Shown here: positions 2,432-27,503 of the stretch, in pieces
Position numbering within the stretch: the first letter of the stretch is position 1
Layout: each line of letters begins with the position of its first letter
IMG/VR virus record: IMGVR_UViG_3300025099_000090
Coordinates: 1-30,559 of that record
DNA from: a virus
Reading direction: 5' to 3' (one strand)
DNA: 30,559 nt
Position numbers and translations under genes: made by a program
The notes under the pieces: generated by a model
Database searches by the model: none
What the model saw: the letters and a program-made list of their open reading frames with translations, nothing else
What the model was told of the DNA's origin: nothing

Positions 2432-3274
2432 TTAAGACCCCATTAGAGCCGTCGCTATATTTGCAAGGGCTTCAGGCTTCTCGTGCACGTACTTTTTGGT
2501 GGTAGCCTCAGACCGATGACCCAGTATCTTACCTATAAGTATAGTGTTGACGTTCAGGTCGTTAGCCAAGTTGGTTGCACAGGTGTGGCGCAGTGAGTGA
2601 AACACGAAGGTTTCGTCGTTGGGCGCAATGTACTTACGAGCGGCATCCCACCCATTGTAGAACGAGCGGTGCTTGTAGTGGTTCTCAGGCTTATCACCTA
2701 GAGCAGCGAGGGCCGCCCTAGCTTTCTCATTAAGAGGCACCCAACGCTCATCGCCGTTCTTAGTCTTCTCCAAATGCACCCACTCCTGAGAGCTCTCAGG
2801 AGCCTGCTGAGGGTGCCTTTTGATCATCGATGGGGTCACCTTGCGGATTTCCCCTAAGCGCATCCCTGTGTGCACTGCAAGCGTCACAAAGTGCAGCATC
2901 CACGGACGATAGAAGTCACGGCTGAACCAGTCGTTAAGCTTCTCCATTTCGTCCTTGGTCATGTACCGTGGACGACCTTCGCCCTCGTCCTGCCAACTGA
3001 CCTTGGGCGCATGTTCAATCAGGCGCATGTCCTGCGCCAACTTGAAGACGCTGCTGAGTGCGGCGGTGTATCTGTTGACCGTCGCAGGTGCCCTTCCATC
3101 AGCAAGCAGCGTGTCGAGGTATAGGTAGACATCAGACGCCGTGAAGGCCGAGATGTCACGCTTGCCGTATCCGCTGTAACGACAGACCTTCTCAAGCTTC
3201 TTGAGGTTGTCCTTAAGAGTTCTGTCTGACCAGATGCGGTGCGAGTGTAGTCGAATGAAATCTTCTAAAGTCAT
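2432..3274 (-). CDS. int: Tyrosine-family site-specific integrase
   Basis: This 280-aa recombinase would catalyse strand exchange between attP and attB through a 3'-phosphotyrosine intermediate. The N-terminal ~90 residues form a SAM-like core-binding domain. The catalytic domain shows R139 in TGMRLGEI, K172 in the beta-hairpin KTKNGDERW, H226-x-x-R229 in HSLRHT, H253 in LGHRS and nucleophile Y262 in TKKYVH. All expected active-site residues are therefore present, and the length is usual for a small phage integrase. ATG at 3274 has an AGAGAGGA ribosome site. The same leader-like string, CTTAGAGAGGACT-, precedes the gene starting at 4398. The gene lies about 1.2 kb from a tRNA-Cys 3' fragment that is the likely att core. 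Its presence next to a T7-like polymerase indicates a temperate T7-like phage. Confidence 0.97.
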   Translation of the reverse strand: MTLEDFIRLHSHRIWSDRTLKDNLKKLEKVCRYSGYGKRDISAFTASDVYLYLDTLLADGRAPATVNRYTAALSSVFKLAQDMRLIEHAPKVSWQDEGEGRPRYMTKDEMEKLNDWFSRDFYRPWMLHFVTLAVHTGMRLGEIRKVTPSMIKRHPQQAPESSQEWVHLEKTKNGDERWVPLNEKARAALAALGDKPENHYKHRSFYNGWDAARKYIAPNDETFVFHSLRHTCATNLANDLNVNTILIGKILGHRSEATTKKYVHEKPEALANIATALMGS

Positions 3275-16971: not shown

Positions 16972-18543
16972 TCACACCATTTCTATGTACATTTCATCTA
17001 CACTTTCTACTGGCTCCCAAGCGCCCTCGTGGACGTGATTAGCCAGTGCGAGGCTCATGACACAGTCGTCGTAGCAGCCTGCTTCAGCTTCCATCCCACC
17101 GCTTTCTGTCACGATGTATGTCAGCATCTCTCTAATAGTTGTCTTGTCGTTTAGCTCGATCTCACCGTCGCGCACTGACGCGCGTAACTGGTCGATGATC
17201 AGCGGTTTCGTCTTGGCAGTTGTCGCAAAGCCCAACTTGACAGTCTCACGATCTGTGAGCTTGTCCACTTCAGTGGTCGTATAAAAGTTAGCGTAAGCCA
17301 TATCTTTAGCCAGACGAGTGCATGTGAGAATGCCATGGCTGTTGTTCTCCACGATAATGTAAGCCTGATTGAAGAAGTCCCCTAAGTTATAGAGGACCGT
17401 AGCAAAGAAGTCGGGGTGCACATGGCCTCTCCAAGTAGCCACCTGCCGCTTCTTACTGTCGAGCACTTGGGCAACGCTGTAGTCACCGTTTCTGACACCC
17501 ATAGCGACGTCAGCACCTATGACATACTGCTCTCCGGGGTCGTGCGCTCTGTATAGCGTGAGCTCCCCCCTGACGTTGTTCTCCCAGTCGTCACCTTCGA
17601 GCGCTAGACGCTCTTTGACGTCTGCAGCATCTCCTAGGTTCTCCTGAAGTTGCTCAGGGTTAAACACTGGGCGACCTGTCGTCAGAAAGGCCTCTTCGGG
17701 TTCTGATGGGTACTCCTGTCGAAACAGGTCGATGCCATTCTGAGCAATCTTACGACGACGAAACATCAACTGGCCGTCATCTAAAGAATACTTTTCCGCT
17801 AGCTCTTCTTCCTCTGGAGTGCGTTGGAACTTCTTAGGGACCGTCTCTCGATACTCAGGGTTGACGTGCCAAGGGATAAACACAGGCACATAGCCGTTGG
17901 AGCCATCCACGGCACCTTTCCAGAGGTCATAAAAGACGCCTGTCACACCATTGGCCGTGCTTTCGACGAAGACGGCAGTGTTCTTTGTGTTTGGTACGGC
18001 CTGTGTGAGGGAGTTCCAGTTGTCGGCTGCTGTCGTCTTAGACCAAAAGGCAAGCTCTGAAGCATGAACGTGGGTCAGCGTCTCACCTCGGCCAATAGCA
18101 TCGCCACCTGCAGTCGCAACGACGTAAGAGCTATCGAGGACGTCAAACGACAACTCGCGCCGGGAGCTATACTTAGTGTGAGGCTTTAGGAGCTCAGGGC
18201 AGTTCTCGTGATACCTCTTTGTCATGTCGAAGAGGGCACGAGTGCTATCAGAGTGGTGCGTGATAACCATGGATTTACACGCGGCACGCTGAGAGACGCT
18301 GAAGTATAAGTAGCCGCCAACATAGGTCGAGAGACCCTGTTGACGCGCTTTTAAGATGATGACCCTGACTTTGCCTTCTGCTGCTAGCTGATCTTCGACA
18401 GCCGACTGCAGGATGGCTTGGGCAGGGTTCAGCTTTAGGGGCTGAACGTCACCTTCCTTAGTTCTGATCTTTAGGGCAGATTTAGAGTAGAACTCAAAGT
18501 CAGTGTATAGGCGTTTCCGTATCGCGGCTAACTTCGGGTTCAT
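16972..18543 (-). CDS. terL: Terminase large subunit (packaging ATPase/nuclease, 523 aa)
   Basis: This is the DNA-packaging motor. The ATPase half has a Walker A-like KARQQGLST (residues 65-73), a Walker B region LTHVHASELAFW with catalytic E163, and coupling motif VFVESTANG (191-199). The nuclease half is RNase H-like, with D345 (VIGADVAMG), E399 (IIVENNSHG) and D492/D493 (CYDDCVMSLA). All key residues are present. The start ATG at 18543 overlaps the end of terS by 44 bases, a usual coupling for terminase subunits. The portal gene follows after four bases. In this genome terL leads the head genes rather than ending the map as in T7. Confidence 0.96.
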   Translation of the reverse strand: MNPKLAAIRKRLYTDFEFYSKSALKIRTKEGDVQPLKLNPAQAILQSAVEDQLAAEGKVRVIILKARQQGLSTYVGGYLYFSVSQRAACKSMVITHHSDSTRALFDMTKRYHENCPELLKPHTKYSSRRELSFDVLDSSYVVATAGGDAIGRGETLTHVHASELAFWSKTTAADNWNSLTQAVPNTKNTAVFVESTANGVTGVFYDLWKGAVDGSNGYVPVFIPWHVNPEYRETVPKKFQRTPEEEELAEKYSLDDGQLMFRRRKIAQNGIDLFRQEYPSEPEEAFLTTGRPVFNPEQLQENLGDAADVKERLALEGDDWENNVRGELTLYRAHDPGEQYVIGADVAMGVRNGDYSVAQVLDSKKRQVATWRGHVHPDFFATVLYNLGDFFNQAYIIVENNSHGILTCTRLAKDMAYANFYTTTEVDKLTDRETVKLGFATTAKTKPLIIDQLRASVRDGEIELNDKTTIREMLTYIVTESGGMEAEAGCYDDCVMSLALANHVHEGAWEPVESVDEMYIEMV

Positions 18544-19268: not shown

Positions 19269-22200
19269 CTAGGCGGCAGACAGCATACCTGCATTGGGCG
19301 ACAGTGCCCCCGGCTGCATTTGCTGACGCTGCTGCTCTTCTTGCTCATCCTCAGCCTGCTCAGAGGCCATAAGGGCCATCACGACGGCTATGGATATCGC
19401 AAGTGGGTGGGTGAAGAACTGGATGTCCTTGTTGCCTGCCTTGCGTAGCTCACCTCGTATCCACTTGGCCGTCTCTGGCATTACAAGCTTCGCCATCTTT
19501 GGGTTGACCGCGTAGACCCAGAACGGATCGACAGAGAACTCACCCTTTGACCTTATGTATTTCACATGAGCGTCAAGCTTGTTCTCGAAGTCCATTTGTT
19601 CTTCTGGGGTCATCTGGTTGCGGCGCTGATCGAACTTGTCCATGGCCGCCATCAGGCCACGCACTGGTCTGCGCTCTGTTGGCTTGCCTTCGACGTAAGC
19701 AGACAAGCTGTTCTGCAGGCGTGTAATCTCGCGGAGTATCTTGCGCTCTTGAGGTGTACGCTTGCCTTGCGGCTTGTCGATCATAGCGCCGATAGCATTC
19801 TCTACGGATGGCGTGCCGTTTCCGTTGCCGTTTAGCATAGGACCGACACCAGACATTGGAGCCATGGTCACGCCGTGGAATATCTCGTGAAGCAGCGTTG
19901 TGAGCGCTTCGATGTCTGTGAGATTGCGCCCACTTCCTATACTATCTGTTCCAAGGAAGTTTGTGCCCGGCTCTAGTGCGAAGACGTGACCAGATGCACC
20001 ATTAGAGGTCTTTGTGAAGCGACCTCTGAGGGTCTTGGCGTTGGACCCTAAAGTCTCAAGCATCTTTTGGTGGTCATTGAACATGTGCACTGTGATGCCA
20101 AGAGCTTTCGCAAGCGTCAGGGCGTCCTCGATGTTCGTAATGCCGTTCTCGTAAGGCGATCCCTTTTTGCCGATCTCGAAGAGTGCTTTTACGGCAGGGA
20201 ACTGGCCGACTACTTCTTGCTTGCTAGGTACTCGTCGGCTGAAGGCGCGTCGTAGTTGGGACGATCCATTGCGGATGAAATCGCTGAGGGCAGGGGCTTC
20301 CCTGTCGTCTGCTGTTTGCCCTGCGCCGACATCCGAGCGGCTAGGTTCGATATTCGAGCCATCGCTTCCCTCTCCGTCATCATTGAGGGGGATGCCTTTT
20401 TCTTTGAGGAGTTTCCTTGCGCCACTTGAGTTAGTCCCTTCTTTTGTTCTGAGCCCTTGCGAACCCCACAGTCTTTTCTCAAAGAACCACAGGACAGCTT
20501 GTGTGTCGCCGGGATCAAGAGAGTTTTGATCAGACAAATCTCCAGTTAATCGAAAGACTGCATTACGCTCTGCATCATTAGCAGGACCACCTGCAACACC
20601 TTCTTTTGCCACAGGTGTTTCAAGCAATCTACCAGTCCACCTACGGTATGATCGAGTGTACCATAAATCAATTACGCTGTCACCTGCGTCGATTTCGACG
20701 CCGTGGAGGCCCATAGAATAACGACCAAGCTTTTTACCGAATGCTAGGAAGCCATATTCTGGGGCCCCTGCTTTCTCTGCCTTAGTTGTGTATCTGCCTG
20801 CTTTATAAAGACCACTATCGAGCATAACATTGTTAATGTCTTCACGCGTCTGTGGTTGAAGTAGGAAGTCCATAGCAGGCGCTAAACCGCCTTTAGTTTC
20901 TACTAAGTATTTAAGCATCCCAAGCTGCTGCTCGTTAGCTTTGTTTCTTATGCCCCACCCTGCATCCTTAGTGACCATTTTGCCTGTTTTAGCGCTTTTA
21001 AAGGTTGTCTTTGGGGGCTCTAACCCTTGCTGCCTAAAACCCTCAGCGCGATTGACTGGCACTTCTCCTGTCCGAAGAAAGTCCTCAAACGCCCATGAAG
21101 ACATCATAAAGGCATTATCTGGGTCAGCACCGTTAGAGAATATACCTGCAAACGTAAGATAAAGCTGACGATGTGTTTGTTCTGTTGCTAATGATGGGTA
21201 GACACGAGATGCCATTGCCATCGCATCTTCAACATCTTTGCTATACCACCCAACACCACTATTTGGCTGCTCAAGTTGTGCCTTAAGCTCTTCAGAGGCC
21301 CTACCTAAAACTTGCTGATAATCATCTTCACTGTTTTCAGGGAATATCTGGCGACCATACTTTTTCTGGTGGTCGGCGTTCATAGCTTCGCCTATTTTGC
21401 GAACAGTAGGTTTTCCTTCTAAAGGCAAAGGTGTGTCGAAATAGTCTAGGTCGTCGCGCTGCAGTAAAGTCGGGTCAGACAATAGAGCAGGACGCGCAGG
21501 TGAGCTTTGGTCAACCTCTAGATCACGGCTGTCTTGCTGAAGTAGCGCAGGGGGTGCGGTTGTTTCTGCGTCGACTTTACTTAAAACTGTGTCGACGCCC
21601 TCTTGTACCAAACTTTTAAATTCTAAGAAATCTATTCTTGATCCATAGTAGCCTTCTATATCTTCTAAATGTTCTAAAGTTTTGCTTTGGTCAAATCTTA
21701 TAGTTTTGTCAGATGCTAAGTATTGTTGATAATCTGGATGGTCAGAAAACCGCAGCTTAAACTCATCTTCTATATCAAGATATTCTTTATACTCAGGGTC
21801 CCAAGACGCTTCATCCAATATTTGAACTTGCACATAAGACGAAGGAGAAACATTTGATATATCAGTTCTGACTTCTATGTTTCTAATGTTAAGCTCATCA
21901 ATACTTTCTTTAACGGCATCTGCTAAATCAGAACTAAGATTACTTACGCTTTCAAAAGCGATATGGTCTTTATTACCTGACAGCTTACCATACAGCAGGC
22001 TGCCTTCAATTACTTGGTCTTTTACTTTACGGCCTGCCTCAGATGTCGAGAGTAGCACAGGTGAGCTTTGGTCAACCTCTAGATCACGGTCGTCTTGCTG
22101 CCTTGGTGGCCTCACTAGGGCTTCGCGTTTGCCTACATGGTTTGGAGCGCTGATATAACCTTCAGCTTCCATCCTGTTTACTAAAGTCTCAGCCTCAGAA

Positions 22201-25200
22201 TAAGGCATACCTAGTTTTCTCTGGAGCCACGAAATAGACACTTTGCCTTCTTCTGCAAGCAAGTTTAAAGCTTGAGAGTAGTTATCAGGAGACAACGCAG
22301 GAGCAGCAGGTGCTTCAGTCAATGCAGGAGCAGCAGGTGCTTCAGGTGGCAATGCAGGGGTCTCAGCCAATGCAGGAGCAGCAGGTGCTTCAGGTGGCTG
22401 ACGATTAACAATAGCTTCGATCTTGGCGCGAATGCCGGGGGTTGACGCTTCGAGAGACGACAGCATCGCATCGACACTCTCAGGAGCCATAGTGCCCTCT
22501 GAGATCGCCCTCACAGCACCCTCAATGATGCTGCCCTCAGCAACCATCTCGCCTGCCGTTTGTGGCACCACTGGAGCCTCAGTCATTGCCTCAGTTGGCG
22601 CAGGTGCTTCTGTTTGTGTGCTTGTTGGCTTCTTAGGGGCGTCCTGCAGACGCTGCAGTCTGCTTTTCTGCTCACGCTGATTGGTGACGCGGTCGAGATA
22701 CGGACGCACATACTTGTCGATGGCCTCAGAGCTCACCTCGTTTCTCTGCAGTGCCTCTATGTCAGTCTGTAGTTGGGCGACAATATCTGGGCTCCGCTTC
22801 TTTGCTCTGCCTAAGACGGACAGCAGTTGGCCTTTGTCTGTCACGGAGACGTCGAGGTCTGCAGACAGTGTAGACTGCAGGGTGTCAGCCACTTCGATGT
22901 TGGCATCTTCGCCTGCCTGATAGTTCTCAGGAGATGTAAACTGGCGGCCTGACTGCTGTGGACCTGTTGTCTGCTGTGGTGCACCTGATGAAACTTCAGG
23001 TGAAGCTGACGGATCAAATGAGCGCAGAAGTGATGGGCTGTCAGGTTGAAACTTAATGAGGTGAGGGGCGTTTTCTTGTGCATATGCACCAACAGCTAAT
23101 ATTGCGTCACTTAAGGCTTCTATCTGGTTTTCGCCGCCTGCAAGGTTCTCATTGATTTGATCTATCAGCGCCAACATGCCGGGGTCATTGGCAATGTCAG
23201 GGTCCTTAGACATCATACTTACGACATCGATAAGACCCTGCTTGTCCAATCCAGTGCGGAACAGGAAGTTACCTATGGGTGACTGCTCGAAGTCAGCGAC
23301 GTTCATCTTAGTGTTGAACTGCGCCAAAGATGCACGGATTGCCTTAGCTTGGTTTTTAGAGGCTGCTGCCTTTTTCTCCTTAAGTTGCTCTGCAGCAATT
23401 ATGGAAGGACCTTCGGGCGTAGGCAGTCCAAACTTACCTGTGTTTTGCCTCACAAACCGAGCAACCTTAGAGCGGCGACCAGTCATAGCGTCCGTAAGTC
23501 TTCCCATGACCCAAAGAGCACCCTGAGCAGGGATAGTGCCGCCTTGAGTTATCATAGGGAGACCAGAGCCAAGCATAGCATTAGCTGCTATCTTTGGAGC
23601 GTTATAACCTGCGCCTGCCATGGAAATAGGGTTGAACAAGTCAGTAAACCTACTGACGCCGCCCTGAACGCCTCTCTTAAAGAGGTCTGTAATTACGTTG
23701 GATTTCTGCAGGGCGTTTAAAAGCTCTTGGCCTTCTTTCAGACCACCTACCAGACGACGTGCAGCATCTAGCTGATCCTGCGTTACTCTGGATGAGACCT
23801 TTTTCTTTGCGCCCTTTATGCCTGCACTTGCTTGCGTGTAGTTAAGCAGCAAGTCTTCTAATGACTTTGCATTCTTAGGGCTCAGTAGAGGCTTTAGTAC
23901 AGCTACAAGGCCTGTGATTGTTTCGTTATTGCCCTGACGAAGGTCCTCTAAGGCCTGCTTTGCGCCTCCTTCAGAGCTATTGTCGATGTCTTTAAGATTA
24001 TAGCCGTTTGCTTTCGCAAGTTCCTGAAGCTGCCTTGCGACGTCTCCTGCAGCGCCTCGGTAGCTCTCCTCTAGCGTCGTTGGGTCAGCTAGGGTGCCAT
24101 CTGAGGTGTACAAGCTGCGTGACTTTTGCACGGCCATCTGACCTGCAGTCTGCCCTGCAATCATAGGGCCTGCACCAAAGACTTCAGCAAAGAGTTCACC
24201 GGGGTTTTGCTCTTTGCCCTCTGCTTGTAGTGCAGCACTTTCACCTAAGCCCTCACCGACAGCACCAACAGTACCGCCTGCGATTAATCCTGCGCCCTTT
24301 CGTACCTTGCCGCCTTGGTTGGCTGCTCTTGCTATACGGCCAGTAACCCCACCTGTTGCAGCGTCGACAGTACCAATAGCTAAAGCACGCTTACGAGCAT
24401 TCATGAGCATGTCTGTGATTAGCTCAGGGTTTGCCTCAGACCACGCCTTGACTGCGTTGGGGTCCTCGACGTTGACACCTCTAGAGCCCAACTCTTGTGT
24501 GAGCTCCTGAGACAACGCGATGCCGAGCTCTGTGCTGCCACCGACTAAACCTGCCAAGGTGCCGCCTGCTGCAGGACCACCTACAGCAGTCCCTGCGATA
24601 GCTGCTGCGACTGTAGGGATCATGGCAGGCAGTGAGCGTAAGAATACCGTCCGTGTTATCTCACCGGGGGCCTCACGAAACGTATCGAAGACGTCGCCAG
24701 TCTGCTGCAGGAATGTGTCGCCCTCTGGGTTAAACATCTCCTGAGCTTTTGCGCTCATTGGTATCTGAGAGGAACGACGTTGCAGGTCCATCAGGTTTGG
24801 AAGGACGTCTGTGGCTAATGTCTGGGCCGATCTGCCTGCAGCGGCGTCAAGTGACGCCTGCGTGTTTTGAGCCGTAGGTGTCGCAGCGGTGCTTTGGATA
24901 TTAGCAGCTTGATTTCTTAGGTCAGCAATCTGGTCAGCTAAGGTTGCTCTTTCGTCTGGGTCTTCAAGTAAATTAAGGTCTGCCTCGTAAGACTTGGCGA
25001 GGTCGAGAAGATACTGAGCGTTTTGCGCGAAGTTACCCTGCGACAGGTTGCCAGTCTGGGCATTCTGCATGATATCAAGGTGCTTGTTTGCGCGTACACC
25101 GGGGATAACCATCTGCGCCTGCAGCATACCTGCACGAAAGTCGCCAGATGCGCTGCCTGTTTCTGGGCCTTGTGGCTGCTTTGCCTTGGCAAGTCTCGCT

Positions 25201-25283
25201 TGAATGGCTGCTGCCATTTGCTCACGGCTCATGGTGTCAGGAAACTGGTATACCTGACCATCAGGGGTGCTGACTGTCTGCAT
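19269..25283 (-). CDS. Giant internal virion/ejection protein with FtsK-gamma-like and HExxH domains (2004 aa)
   Basis: By size and position this is the gp16-like ejection protein. It begins with the GQVYQFPDTMSREQMAAAI motif seen at the start of such proteins. Gly/Ala-rich hydrophobic segments at ~219-257 and ~335-355 may enter membranes. A Pro/Ala/Glu linker with repeats precedes a winged-helix segment at ~1000-1058 (ISWLQRKLGMPYSEAE, RMEAEGYISAPNHVGKRE), closely similar to the FtsK gamma DNA-recognition domain. The region from ~1260 to 1650 (GWYSKDVEDAMAMASR, DLWYTRSYRRWTG, AVLWFFEKRLWG) resembles phage polyvalent proteins. HEIFH at 1799-1803 is a zinc-peptidase-type HExxH. A hydrophobic segment lies near 1960-1975. 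ATG at 25283 has GAGGG upstream, better than the ATG at 25304. Ejection with the DNA is inferred. Confidence 0.85.
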   Translation of the reverse strand: MQTVSTPDGQVYQFPDTMSREQMAAAIQARLAKAKQPQGPETGSASGDFRAGMLQAQMVIPGVRANKHLDIMQNAQTGNLSQGNFAQNAQYLLDLAKSYEADLNLLEDPDERATLADQIADLRNQAANIQSTAATPTAQNTQASLDAAAGRSAQTLATDVLPNLMDLQRRSSQIPMSAKAQEMFNPEGDTFLQQTGDVFDTFREAPGEITRTVFLRSLPAMIPTVAAAIAGTAVGGPAAGGTLAGLVGGSTELGIALSQELTQELGSRGVNVEDPNAVKAWSEANPELITDMLMNARKRALAIGTVDAATGGVTGRIARAANQGGKVRKGAGLIAGGTVGAVGEGLGESAALQAEGKEQNPGELFAEVFGAGPMIAGQTAGQMAVQKSRSLYTSDGTLADPTTLEESYRGAAGDVARQLQELAKANGYNLKDIDNSSEGGAKQALEDLRQGNNETITGLVAVLKPLLSPKNAKSLEDLLLNYTQASAGIKGAKKKVSSRVTQDQLDAARRLVGGLKEGQELLNALQKSNVITDLFKRGVQGGVSRFTDLFNPISMAGAGYNAPKIAANAMLGSGLPMITQGGTIPAQGALWVMGRLTDAMTGRRSKVARFVRQNTGKFGLPTPEGPSIIAAEQLKEKKAAASKNQAKAIRASLAQFNTKMNVADFEQSPIGNFLFRTGLDKQGLIDVVSMMSKDPDIANDPGMLALIDQINENLAGGENQIEALSDAILAVGAYAQENAPHLIKFQPDSPSLLRSFDPSASPEVSSGAPQQTTGPQQSGRQFTSPENYQAGEDANIEVADTLQSTLSADLDVSVTDKGQLLSVLGRAKKRSPDIVAQLQTDIEALQRNEVSSEAIDKYVRPYLDRVTNQREQKSRLQRLQDAPKKPTSTQTEAPAPTEAMTEAPVVPQTAGEMVAEGSIIEGAVRAISEGTMAPESVDAMLSSLEASTPGIRAKIEAIVNRQPPEAPAAPALAETPALPPEAPAAPALTEAPAAPALSPDNYSQALNLLAEEGKVSISWLQRKLGMPYSEAETLVNRMEAEGYISAPNHVGKREALVRPPRQQDDRDLEVDQSSPVLLSTSEAGRKVKDQVIEGSLLYGKLSGNKDHIAFESVSNLSSDLADAVKESIDELNIRNIEVRTDISNVSPSSYVQVQILDEASWDPEYKEYLDIEDEFKLRFSDHPDYQQYLASDKTIRFDQSKTLEHLEDIEGYYGSRIDFLEFKSLVQEGVDTVLSKVDAETTAPPALLQQDSRDLEVDQSSPARPALLSDPTLLQRDDLDYFDTPLPLEGKPTVRKIGEAMNADHQKKYGRQIFPENSEDDYQQVLGRASEELKAQLEQPNSGVGWYSKDVEDAMAMASRVYPSLATEQTHRQLYLTFAGIFSNGADPDNAFMMSSWAFEDFLRTGEVPVNRAEGFRQQGLEPPKTTFKSAKTGKMVTKDAGWGIRNKANEQQLGMLKYLVETKGGLAPAMDFLLQPQTREDINNVMLDSGLYKAGRYTTKAEKAGAPEYGFLAFGKKLGRYSMGLHGVEIDAGDSVIDLWYTRSYRRWTGRLLETPVAKEGVAGGPANDAERNAVFRLTGDLSDQNSLDPGDTQAVLWFFEKRLWGSQGLRTKEGTNSSGARKLLKEKGIPLNDDGEGSDGSNIEPSRSDVGAGQTADDREAPALSDFIRNGSSQLRRAFSRRVPSKQEVVGQFPAVKALFEIGKKGSPYENGITNIEDALTLAKALGITVHMFNDHQKMLETLGSNAKTLRGRFTKTSNGASGHVFALEPGTNFLGTDSIGSGRNLTDIEALTTLLHEIFHGVTMAPMSGVGPMLNGNGNGTPSVENAIGAMIDKPQGKRTPQERKILREITRLQNSLSAYVEGKPTERRPVRGLMAAMDKFDQRRNQMTPEEQMDFENKLDAHVKYIRSKGEFSVDPFWVYAVNPKMAKLVMPETAKWIRGELRKAGNKDIQFFTHPLAISIAVVMALMASEQAEDEQEEQQRQQMQPGALSPNAGMLSAA
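21497..21539 (-). repeat. Direct repeat copy A within the giant protein gene
   Basis: The first 32 bases are identical to 22058-22089. After two changed bases a further nine match. It encodes the DLEVDQSSP motif. The copies are 561 bases apart (187 codons, in frame) and bracket an AT-rich segment, which suggests insertion or duplication of a domain. Confidence 0.9.
22058..22100 (-). repeat. Direct repeat copy B within the giant protein gene
   Basis: This is the partner of 21497-21539 and again encodes RDLEVDQSSP. It lies immediately after the FtsK-gamma-like domain in the protein. Between the copies the sequence is clearly richer in A and T than the flanking gene. Confidence 0.9.
22303..22392 (-). 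repeat. Short tandem repeats coding a Pro/Ala/Glu linker
   Basis: The unit GCAGGAGCAGCAGGTGCTTC occurs three times (plus-strand view), with GGTGGCAATGCAGGG-type spacers. It encodes alternating EAPAAPAL-like units just before the winged-helix segment. This is probably a flexible linker whose length can change by slippage. Confidence 0.75.
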
Positions 25284-25285
25284 TG

Positions 25286-26464
25286 TTATCCCTCGTCGCT
25301 CCATTTGCCAGTGGCATCGTCAAAGACTAGGGGCGCTGCTTGTTGTGAAGGGCCTGCATCTGAGGTTGAAGACATAGGTGCAGGAGCCTCAATGCCGTGG
25401 ATACGTCGGTATTCAACTTGCTGTGCTCTGATAGCCTCGACTGCAGCCATGTAGTGTCTCTTGACTGCTCTAAGGTTCTTCTCGAACTGATCCCTTGTTG
25501 CAGACTGTTTAAGGCTGCCCAAAGAGGCATTAAGTTGCGAAAGTTCTCTCTCACTGACCTGACCTAATGCGCCACCTGTTGGAGATGCATCACGCATAGC
25601 TTGGAGCCTGTCGAAACCGATGGATGACTCGATGGTCGTGATGGCATTCGCTACGTCGTGGGCAGGTGTCCCCGGCATAGCACTCATGATGCTGCCTGCG
25701 AGGCCTGTCGTCCACGAGGTGGGCCACCAAGTCTCGTCGCCTAAGTTGCGCTCGATGTCTCGTATGGCTTCTAGAGCAGCCTCACTGTATGCCGCCGTTG
25801 GCATCGTCGGAGCGCCCTTTTTCTTAGCTTTTGCATCAGCAAGCTCTCGTTTTAACATGCGGTCAGCTATAGACTTGCGGCGTGCTTCCTCGATGGCAAA
25901 GGCTTCCATGTCAGCCTGCCTGTTTACGTCTTGTACCTGACCATATGCATTCGTAGCTGCACCTATGGCCGCCAAGCCGCCTTGTCCTGATGCTGCGACA
26001 CCTGCTCCACCGATGCGCATTAGGGCTTCACCCATAGGGATGCGTTGGTTGGGGATCGACAGTGCTGCAGGGGGCTTCATAGAGCCGCGTGCGTTGCCTG
26101 TTATGAGCGCAGGGGTTGCTGCAGGGGCTGCTGCAGGGGCAGGGGCTGCTGCAGGGGCAGGAACTGACGCAAGGTCTATTGACTGCGAGTGGAGCGCAGG
26201 GTCGCTTTTGTACGTTGCATCGTCGGCACTGCCACCATGCAGCATGTTTCCAGTTGTCATCCATGGCGTACGCCAGTCTTCACCTGCTCCACCATAACTA
26301 GGGTCCACTACTGGACCAACAAGGCTTGGGTTTGCAGGAGACGACATTGGAGCGCTACGGAAAACGTCATGGTTGTAGCGTGGGATGTCACTGACGTAGG
26401 TGTCCAAGACGCCTGCGTTGGCGTGCCTTGGGTCATGGGTCATGCGGTTGTTTGCGAGGATCAT
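25286..26464 (-). CDS. Internal virion/ejection protein candidate (392 aa)
   Basis: The protein starts MILANNRMTHDPRHANAG. It has an Ala/Pro tandem-repeat linker (about residues 100-125) and an Ala/Gly-rich helical segment (GEALMRIGGAGVAASGQGG). A helical charged region follows (DMEAFAIEEARRKSIADRML), and the C-terminal half is helical (LKQSATRDQFEKNLRAVKRH). I assign no named family. Its position between a 345-aa and a 2004-aa protein matches the second of three ejection proteins in podoviruses (gp14/15/16 order in T7). ATG at 26464 has GGAGG eleven bases upstream and overlaps nothing. The longer reading from 26677 would lie inside the upstream gene. Confidence 0.7.
   Translation of the reverse strand: MILANNRMTHDPRHANAGVLDTYVSDIPRYNHDVFRSAPMSSPANPSLVGPVVDPSYGGAGEDWRTPWMTTGNMLHGGSADDATYKSDPALHSQSIDLASVPAPAAAPAPAAAPAATPALITGNARGSMKPPAALSIPNQRIPMGEALMRIGGAGVAASGQGGLAAIGAATNAYGQVQDVNRQADMEAFAIEEARRKSIADRMLKRELADAKAKKKGAPTMPTAAYSEAALEAIRDIERNLGDETWWPTSWTTGLAGSIMSAMPGTPAHDVANAITTIESSIGFDRLQAMRDASPTGGALGQVSERELSQLNASLGSLKQSATRDQFEKNLRAVKRHYMAAVEAIRAQQVEYRRIHGIEAPAPMSSTSDAGPSQQAAPLVFDDATGKWSDEG
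26105..26165 (-). repeat. GC-rich tandem repeat coding an Ala/Pro linker
   Basis: GCTGCAGGGGC-type units repeat about five times and encode alternating PAPAAAPA residues in the 392-aa protein. This is likely a flexible linker and prone to copy-number change. Confidence 0.75.
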
Positions 26465-26465
26465 C

Positions 26466-27503
26466 TTAGATTGGCCCTCCGTAACTTGTGGGCCGTGAAG
26501 GGGGAGCGCCACCGCCGTAGCTGCCGTAGCCGCCCATGTTTGTCGGGAGCTTATTCTGTATCTGCTGACCGTACTGCTGACCGAAGCCAAACCCTTGCAT
26601 ACCGCCGAAGACTGCAGCAGCGCCGGGGCTGACGGTGTTCGCTTGGTACTGGTTAGCTGTCGACGGAGCTCGGCCAAGCATACCGCTCATGTAGTCTTTG
26701 TAGCGGTTATACGCGAAGTCTCTGTTGCCCTCGAAGCGTGCTCTGTCGTCAAGCATCTTGGCTTGCTCTTGCTGCTGTAGGAAGCTGCCTGCGTTCATAC
26801 CGAAGTCACCGCCTGTTCCCATGGCACCCATGCCTGTGGTGAAGGCACCTTGCATACCTTGGTTGGCTGACATGGCATCAGCAAACTGGCGGCCCTGTTG
26901 GTTCAACGAGCGGTCAATCATCTGGTCACGCACCTGAGCGCCTGTGGCTGCTGTACGACGTGCCAAGTCGCCCTGAAGTGCTGCGTCTGCAATACCTGCG
27001 CGGCTTGAGTTGGCGTTGCCTGTGCCAGACGCAGACATGTTGTTGCCCTGCATGGCTAGCTGAGTGTTGCGACGTGCGTCACTCATGATGCTGTCCGTCA
27101 GAGCGCCTGCGTTCTCGTTGGCGTACCCTATGGCATTACCGAGGCGGTCTTCTTGGGTCTGATCGTAAAGGTTCTGATAGTTCTGACCGAAGCCTGCACC
27201 AGTGTTCATCATGTTGAACCCAGTGTTCATCACGCTTGGACTGTAGCCGCCCATGGTGTTCGCAGTGCCAGTCTGGAAGGCGTTAGGGCCTGCTAGGGTT
27301 GGGCCTTGGTAGTAACCTGCGTTCACCGCGTTGTTGAATGCACCTTGACCACCTGAGAGGCCTGCGTCGACGAAAGGCTTGTACTGATTGAAGCCTGCCA
27401 TGTTAGCTGCGTTGGCTTTATCTTGAGCCTTCGACTGCTCTTTTGCGCCTAGATAGCTACCGCCTGCGCCGATAACAGCAGAACCAATCATGATCCAAGA
27501 CAT
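26466..27503 (-). CDS. Internal virion/DNA-ejection protein candidate (345 aa)
   Basis: The protein begins with a short hydrophobic Gly-rich helix (MSWIMIGSAVIGAGGSYLGA) followed by charged helical sequence (KEQSKAQDKANAANMAG). The body is rich in Gly, Asn, Gln, Met and Ala (NTMGGYSPSVMNTGFNMMNT), and the C-terminus is Gly/Pro/Tyr-rich (MGGYGSYGGGAPP). This composition and the N-terminal membrane-active helix recur in small ejection proteins of marine podoviruses, comparable to T7 gp14. The gene precedes the other two ejection candidates. ATG at 27503 has AAGGG upstream and follows the cupin gene's TAA by two bases. The role is inferred from order and composition. Confidence 0.68.
   Translation of the reverse strand: MSWIMIGSAVIGAGGSYLGAKEQSKAQDKANAANMAGFNQYKPFVDAGLSGGQGAFNNAVNAGYYQGPTLAGPNAFQTGTANTMGGYSPSVMNTGFNMMNTGAGFGQNYQNLYDQTQEDRLGNAIGYANENAGALTDSIMSDARRNTQLAMQGNNMSASGTGNANSSRAGIADAALQGDLARRTAATGAQVRDQMIDRSLNQQGRQFADAMSANQGMQGAFTTGMGAMGTGGDFGMNAGSFLQQQEQAKMLDDRARFEGNRDFAYNRYKDYMSGMLGRAPSTANQYQANTVSPGAAAVFGGMQGFGFGQQYGQQIQNKLPTNMGGYGSYGGGAPPSRPTSYGGPI

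Follow-up and report, generated by a model that had tools for sequence, protein, structure and literature searches.

The giant gene and its neighbourhood

The DNA analysed here, called the window below, is the whole 30,559-base stretch of an IMG/VR virus record. Its minus strand carries an open reading frame with its first ATG at 25304 and its end at 19269, which encodes a giant protein of 2011 aa. In the original prediction this frame began at 25283, which is Met8, so that its residue numbers are 7 lower than ours (HEIFH at 1799 is 1806 here).

25286..26467, minus strand: upstream gene, probable second ejection-type protein (weak phrog_2534 match; ATG inferred from the overlap with its own upstream gene)
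19269..25304, minus strand: giant protein, 2011 aa, probably of the polyvalent ejection type (ORF calling and relatives)
16972..18543, minus strand: terminase large subunit, downstream of the giant gene

In minus-strand order, the genes for a phrog_3287 virion structural protein and the phrog_2534-like protein precede the giant gene, after which come an ORF of 180 aa and the genes for terminase large subunit, portal and major head protein. Further along, the window encodes a tyrosine integrase as well as an amidase endolysin. The annotation of phrog_2534 reads 'released from the phage upon host infection', and the upstream protein matches it weakly. With virion and packaging genes around it and this ejection-type neighbour, the giant gene has the context of a podovirus ejection protein. 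The phage is probably short-tailed and temperate. The nearest annotated relatives of its portal are about 30% identical and come mainly from Pseudomonas and Escherichia phages. When genome contigs were searched with the family alignment for a prophage or host, no relative was found.

Relatives of the giant protein were gathered by two viral scans, and the following conserved parts were identified.

23385..24053, minus strand: conserved core of the N-terminal half, residues 418–640 (alignment of relatives)
20385..21416, minus strand: conserved middle region, residues 1297–1640 (part common to the 3125-aa protein of Limnohabitans phage DC33)
19359..19427, minus strand: conserved hydrophobic segment, residues 1960–1982

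Residues 1344–1563 match the giant protein of phage DC33 (E 8e-5), in agreement with the polyvalent-protein-like region that had been proposed. Hydrophobic stretches are present at 219–243 and 1960–1982, as expected from the predicted membrane-prone segments; the former is not conserved across the relatives. The label 'virion-type' is probable, given the gene position and the family. A Pfam scan of the giant protein revealed no RecA-like motor with Walker motifs of the kind that marks an FtsK translocase, and an NCBIfam search returned a partial FtsK match only.

The FtsK-gamma domain

22113..22283, minus strand: FtsK-gamma winged helix, residues 1008–1064 (Pfam, six-frame search, PDB sequence, fold)

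Residues 1008–1064 score 52.8 bits against Pfam FtsK_gamma (PF09397; E 3.3e-14, cut-off 30.6) and were also recovered by a six-frame search of the window. The top PDB sequence match of this region is E. coli FtsK-gamma (2j5p, E 4e-7). An AlphaFold2 model of residues 998–1295 is confident over the gamma part only (pLDDT 92–94). With this part, the leading Foldseek matches are all FtsK-gamma structures, the first being that of P. aeruginosa (2ve8_G, TMt 0.90, rmsd 0.9 Å); the KOPS-bound FtsK-gamma 2ve9_A reaches a TMt of 0.89. The predicted likeness to the FtsK gamma domain thus held in the structural comparison as well as in the family score, and residues 1008–1064 are a genuine FtsK-gamma winged helix, far beyond chance. 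Judging from the modelled fold, the module should bind double-stranded DNA.

The wing sequence NHVGKRE resembles that of alphaproteobacterial FtsK, a similarity by which an alphaproteobacterial host is only suggested. A tree of gamma domains groups those of the phage giants with a support of 0.65; with 59 columns it is too short to be relied on, and one Rhodobacter sequence in it, trimmed by hand, was not used as evidence.

An exchangeable cassette

21567..22382, minus strand: exchangeable cassette, residues 975–1246, gamma plus low-GC domain (breakpoints against L003, alignment; absent or replaced in relatives)
22055..22100, minus strand: 46-nt linker repeat, copy 1, coding for DDRDLEVDQSSP (direct repeat, 93% identical to copy 2)
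21494..21539, minus strand: 46-nt linker repeat, copy 2 (direct repeat)

The giant gene of relative L003 is 97.4% identical to that of the window from residue 1247 onward and 91% over residues 775–974. Between them, over residues 975–1246, there is no likeness to L003 except for the linker, and L003 carries an unrelated domain at this place; the borders of the replaced stretch are sharp. The first 42 residues of the giant protein are likewise exchanged. The two linker copies lie 561 nt apart and flank the second part of the cassette, whose GC content is low (0.40); L003 and L007 contain a single copy. While the exchange pattern itself is plain from the alignment, the process would be recombination, perhaps via the repeated linker DNA.

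In the other relatives the slot is essentially empty (L004, L005, L010, L012), holds a methyltransferase domain (three members; Pfam 28.5 bits in L025, cut-off 27) or is occupied by domains without assignment. An ADP-ribosyltransferase identity was considered for the cassettes of L006 and L015; Pfam gave no match and it is not claimed. The second domain of the present cassette (residues about 1085–1250) has homologues only in near-identical contigs, and its model is poor. In short, the giant protein is a large chain in which disparate domains are joined and differ from one relative to the next, as is typical of polyvalent proteins.

FtsK_gamma was found in 3 of the 29 family members scanned, the protein of the window included. 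A further scan, aimed at gamma itself, brought in L052, L058 and L055, the last being near L016. The same gamma type, 58% identical, is present in an unrelated protein of 1731 aa (L044/L045; L056/L057 are similar), and a more distant gamma occurs in a 2036-aa protein (L059), so that two giant proteins of unrelated kinds carry the domain as well.

The L044-type genes directly precede the gene of the terminase large subunit. This order raises the alternative that gamma works in the capsid and not in the host, either anchoring the giant protein to phage DNA at packaging or coupling to the neighbouring terminase. The giant gene of the window also stands just ahead of the terminase genes, and a fusion of FtsK-gamma to a terminase has been published (PMC8190038). 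On the other hand, most relatives that share this gene order lack gamma, which is therefore not needed for packaging, so we regard this alternative as unlikely, though worth keeping in mind.

KOPS-reading residues

The original prediction went beyond the fold and proposed that the domain binds oriented host-chromosome motifs. Contact residues were taken from PMC2680272 and PMC5052618 only and are given in E. coli FtsK numbering by alignment to 2j5p. Single alanine mutants of R1300 or E1303 are KOPS-defective, and R1300, E1303 and E1306 mutated together give a 'blind' triple mutant (PMC2680272). In the giant protein these three residues are T1040, N1043 and E1046, so that just one of them is kept.

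As a reference we used 67 motor-bearing cellular FtsKs. They were retrieved with patterns covering about 1285–1293 and from about 1307, where constancy is partly selected; positions 1294, 1297 and 1303 lie outside the patterns. R1300 is present in just 39 of the 67, and since it varies among cellular FtsKs its change alone is a weak argument. G1294, R/K1297 and E/D1303, all in the area of helix 3, are each found in 67/67, and the giant protein has P1034, E1037 and N1043 instead. All eight distinct phage-giant gammas lack both G1294 and R/K1297; position 1297 is E in seven of them and A in L059. The recognition helix of the giant's gamma is, by this sequence comparison, rebuilt and not built like a KOPS reader.

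The octamer GGGNAGGG occurs six times in the phage contig against 2.4 expected, five times on the plus and once on the minus strand. Six of 100 shuffled sequences reach six, and the enrichment is not significant.

It could still be argued that gamma reads KOPS-like oriented host motifs after injection, locating the terminus or dif, orienting DNA entry or competing with FtsK. The model superposes on KOPS-bound 2ve9, the wing is like that of alphaproteobacterial FtsK, the L059 giant retains N1296, R1300 and E1303, and the small terminase of Bacillus phages is a precedent for a host-like gamma in a phage (PMC8190038). We nevertheless consider this improbable: the giant has T and N at the two positions where either single alanine mutant is KOPS-defective, E and P at two positions that are constant in cellular FtsKs, and a contig in which KOPS octamers are not significantly enriched.

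XerD contacts

FtsK-gamma contacts XerD through Q1288, R1289, R1292, I1293, G1294 and N1296 (PMC5052618, Table 1). Two of the six are kept in the giant's gamma (Q1028 and R1029), which is short of the set expected of a XerD-activating domain; the other four differ, with G for R1292, M for I1293, P for G1294 and S for N1296. That the module acts on a tyrosine recombinase, be it host XerD or the phage integrase, as FtsK-gamma does on XerD, is very improbable. The idea draws on the retention of Q1288 and of R1289, the critical salt-bridge residue towards XerD, and on the tyrosine integrase encoded by the same phage. Against it stand the four altered contacts and an integrase that is only weakly similar to solved Xer proteins. 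Moreover, the QR pair is present in 67/67 cellular FtsKs (the retrieval pattern having partly selected for QR) and may thus be structural and its retention unrelated to XerD.

With the KOPS residues replaced and four of six XerD contacts different, the proposed binding of oriented host-chromosome motifs and the roles in finding dif and the terminus, in antagonising FtsK and in KOPS-oriented DNA entry are not supported. What stands of the original interpretation is a gamma fold in a probable virion giant with a conserved HExxH motif.

The C-terminal HExxH region

19272..20237, minus strand: C-terminal HExxH region, putative zincin, residues 1690–2011 (family alignment, model)
19875..19889, minus strand: HEIFH motif, residues 1806–1810 (HExxH invariant in 27/27 sequences)
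19728..19730, minus strand: E1859, nearly invariant Glu in a helix that follows the HExxH helix; one of two candidates for the third zinc ligand

The motif that had been pointed out, HEIFH, is indeed present, and its two His and the Glu do not vary among the 27 otherwise divergent family sequences. E1859 lies in a later helix of the model; E1922 further on is invariant and is the other candidate for the third ligand. The published plan of polyvalent zincins is a HEXXH helix followed by a helix with a Glu (PMC5512222). The conserved pattern and the modelled helices agree with this plan, with no family or fold match to go with them: Pfam gave no polyvalent-zincin match for the HExxH region, and the middle and HExxH regions matched neither a sequence nor a fold in the PDB. 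For this reason catalysis by the domain is putative only.

This same lack of a Pfam, PDB sequence or PDB fold match is what speaks for the region being a structural remnant or another metal site and not a working protease. Such a reading, which is compatible with the others, is rather unlikely in view of the H/E/H retained in 27/27 divergent sequences and the nearly invariant Glu in the following modelled helix. We retain the putative zincin. Self-processing is the role proposed first for polyvalent zincins (PMC5512222), and by analogy it is more likely here than the cutting of host proteins.

A probable polyvalent ejection protein with a putative DNA-binding cargo

A polyvalent protein is consistent with the place of the gene, with the size and modular exchange of its product and with the HExxH domain. 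We favour, at a probability of roughly two in three, a polyvalent ejection protein that consists of a conserved frame, an exchangeable cassette with a DNA-binding gamma module, and a HExxH processing domain. What counts against ejection is that some of the known polyvalent proteins are carried by plasmids and do not belong to a virion.

The giant chain, encoded just ahead of the terminase genes, would be packed into the capsid and enter the host together with the DNA. Its conserved frame comprises residues about 400–880, the middle module, the C-terminal HExxH domain and the hydrophobic tail, and carries the swappable cassette, here the gamma-type winged helix and the unassigned second domain. 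The gamma module, judged by its model, is best read as DNA-binding cargo or as a clamp whose specificity has been altered. As the recognition helix is rebuilt, it most likely grips either incoming phage DNA or some sequence, other than KOPS, that is specific to phage or host. In the former case it would hold the entering DNA much like the C-terminal, DNA-binding part of T7 gp16. The HExxH domain would probably process the chain and so free the cassette in the capsid or in the host, as published polyvalent zincins suggest.

A more far-reaching proposal, which we put forward tentatively and think possible but not probable, is that there is a phage-domesticated FtsK-gamma lineage, marked by the loss of G1294 and of R/K1297 (the latter mostly to E). 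It would be a mobile DNA-reading module spread across unrelated giant ejection proteins, reading a new phage or host sequence at genome entry.

The family offers a testable set of probably injected proteins in which one slot is filled now by a putative DNA-binding module, now by a methyltransferase or yet another domain; the close pair of this phage and L003 could reveal what the cassette cargo does. When a phage protein matches FtsK-gamma, helix 3 should be checked before KOPS binding or chromosome targeting is concluded.

Comparison with known systems

That FtsK_gamma occurs outside FtsK in phages is already known (PMC5512222; PMC8190038). Iyer et al. (2017) list the FtsK wHTH among the rare DNA-binding domains of polyvalent proteins, with Cupriavidus WP_029307715 as an example (PMC5512222). 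What is new is that one altered gamma type recurs among unrelated giant proteins, and that the cassette is cleanly swapped.

With polyvalent proteins the giant shares the giant multidomain chain of phages and plasmids, a HExxH domain that is putatively zincin-like and the swappable effector or DNA-binding domains, including the FtsK winged helix. It differs in a family-specific frame outside Pfam and in its gamma, whose recognition helix is rebuilt and which lies in a cassette shown to be exchanged. Compared with FtsK gamma itself (PF09397; 2ve8, 2ve9, 2j5p), the fold, the family score, the QR of helix 2 and the wing are the same, whereas the FtsK motor is absent and G1294, R/K1297, R1300 and E1303 are P, E, T and N.

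T7 gp16 is an ejection protein whose C-terminal part, gp16-C, binds DNA on the cytoplasmic side in a sequence-independent manner (PMC8954989). Like T7-type gp16, the giant would be a large ejected virion protein of mosaic make-up, its ejection being suggested by the genes around it. However, gp16-C binds DNA without a gamma domain, and the parallel is functional and not derived from sequence.

In the Bacillus phages Sam46 and Sam112 FtsK_gamma is fused to the small terminase (PMC8190038). Here too a structural or packaging protein of a phage carries FtsK-gamma, but the DNA-binding residues are bacterium-like there and altered in the giant. Finally, RdgC-like recombination proteins of Vibrio phages and proteins of Rhodobacter phages also show that gamma is portable outside FtsK. 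In contrast to the giant, these are products of non-virion early genes, and their recognition residues (GYSRAAE, GYNAAAR) are nearer to those of FtsK.

Linker repeat and phage lifestyle

Within the giant gene of the window, a 46-nt linker-coding repeat borders an inserted domain of low GC content on both sides.

21494-21539, within the giant gene, linker repeat
22055-22100, within the giant gene, linker repeat

Two copies are found in the window, whereas the relatives in the phage sequences L003 and L007 have a single one, suggesting that recombination may have occurred through the linker DNA. In the relatives from L040 and L041, additional unassigned domains between conserved anchors fill the same slot as the cassette of the window.

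An integrase gene in the window points to a probably temperate phage, yet relatives of the giant protein in prophages did not turn up in the genome collection.

2432-3274, minus strand, tyrosine integrase (Phage_integrase, 67 bits)

Limnohabitans phage DC33 (PQ492659.1) is assigned to the Inoviridae in its record. Judged by its 39-kb genome and the giant gene for a 3125-aa protein it looks like a tailed phage, and the label is possibly a taxonomy error.

FtsK-gamma domains in other phage proteins

FtsK-gamma-like modules occur in Rhodobacter phage proteins, at two places in the record, and at the C-terminal end of Vibrio phage RdgC-like recombination proteins.

L048:3680-5005 and L049:918-2183, Rhodobacter/Vibrio phage proteins with FtsK-gamma-like modules
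L044:2953-8148, L057:2592-7661 and L059:6660-12767, FtsK-gamma-bearing giant proteins
L059:8001-8177, gamma domain of the L059 giant protein

In these giant proteins low-complexity linkers flank the gamma domain. An altered FtsK-gamma type is common to two unrelated giant protein families, the L059 version being more distant. Since the latter retains N1296, R1300, E1303 and E1306 (E. coli FtsK numbering), the L059 protein is a better candidate than that of the window for an injected protein that would read KOPS.
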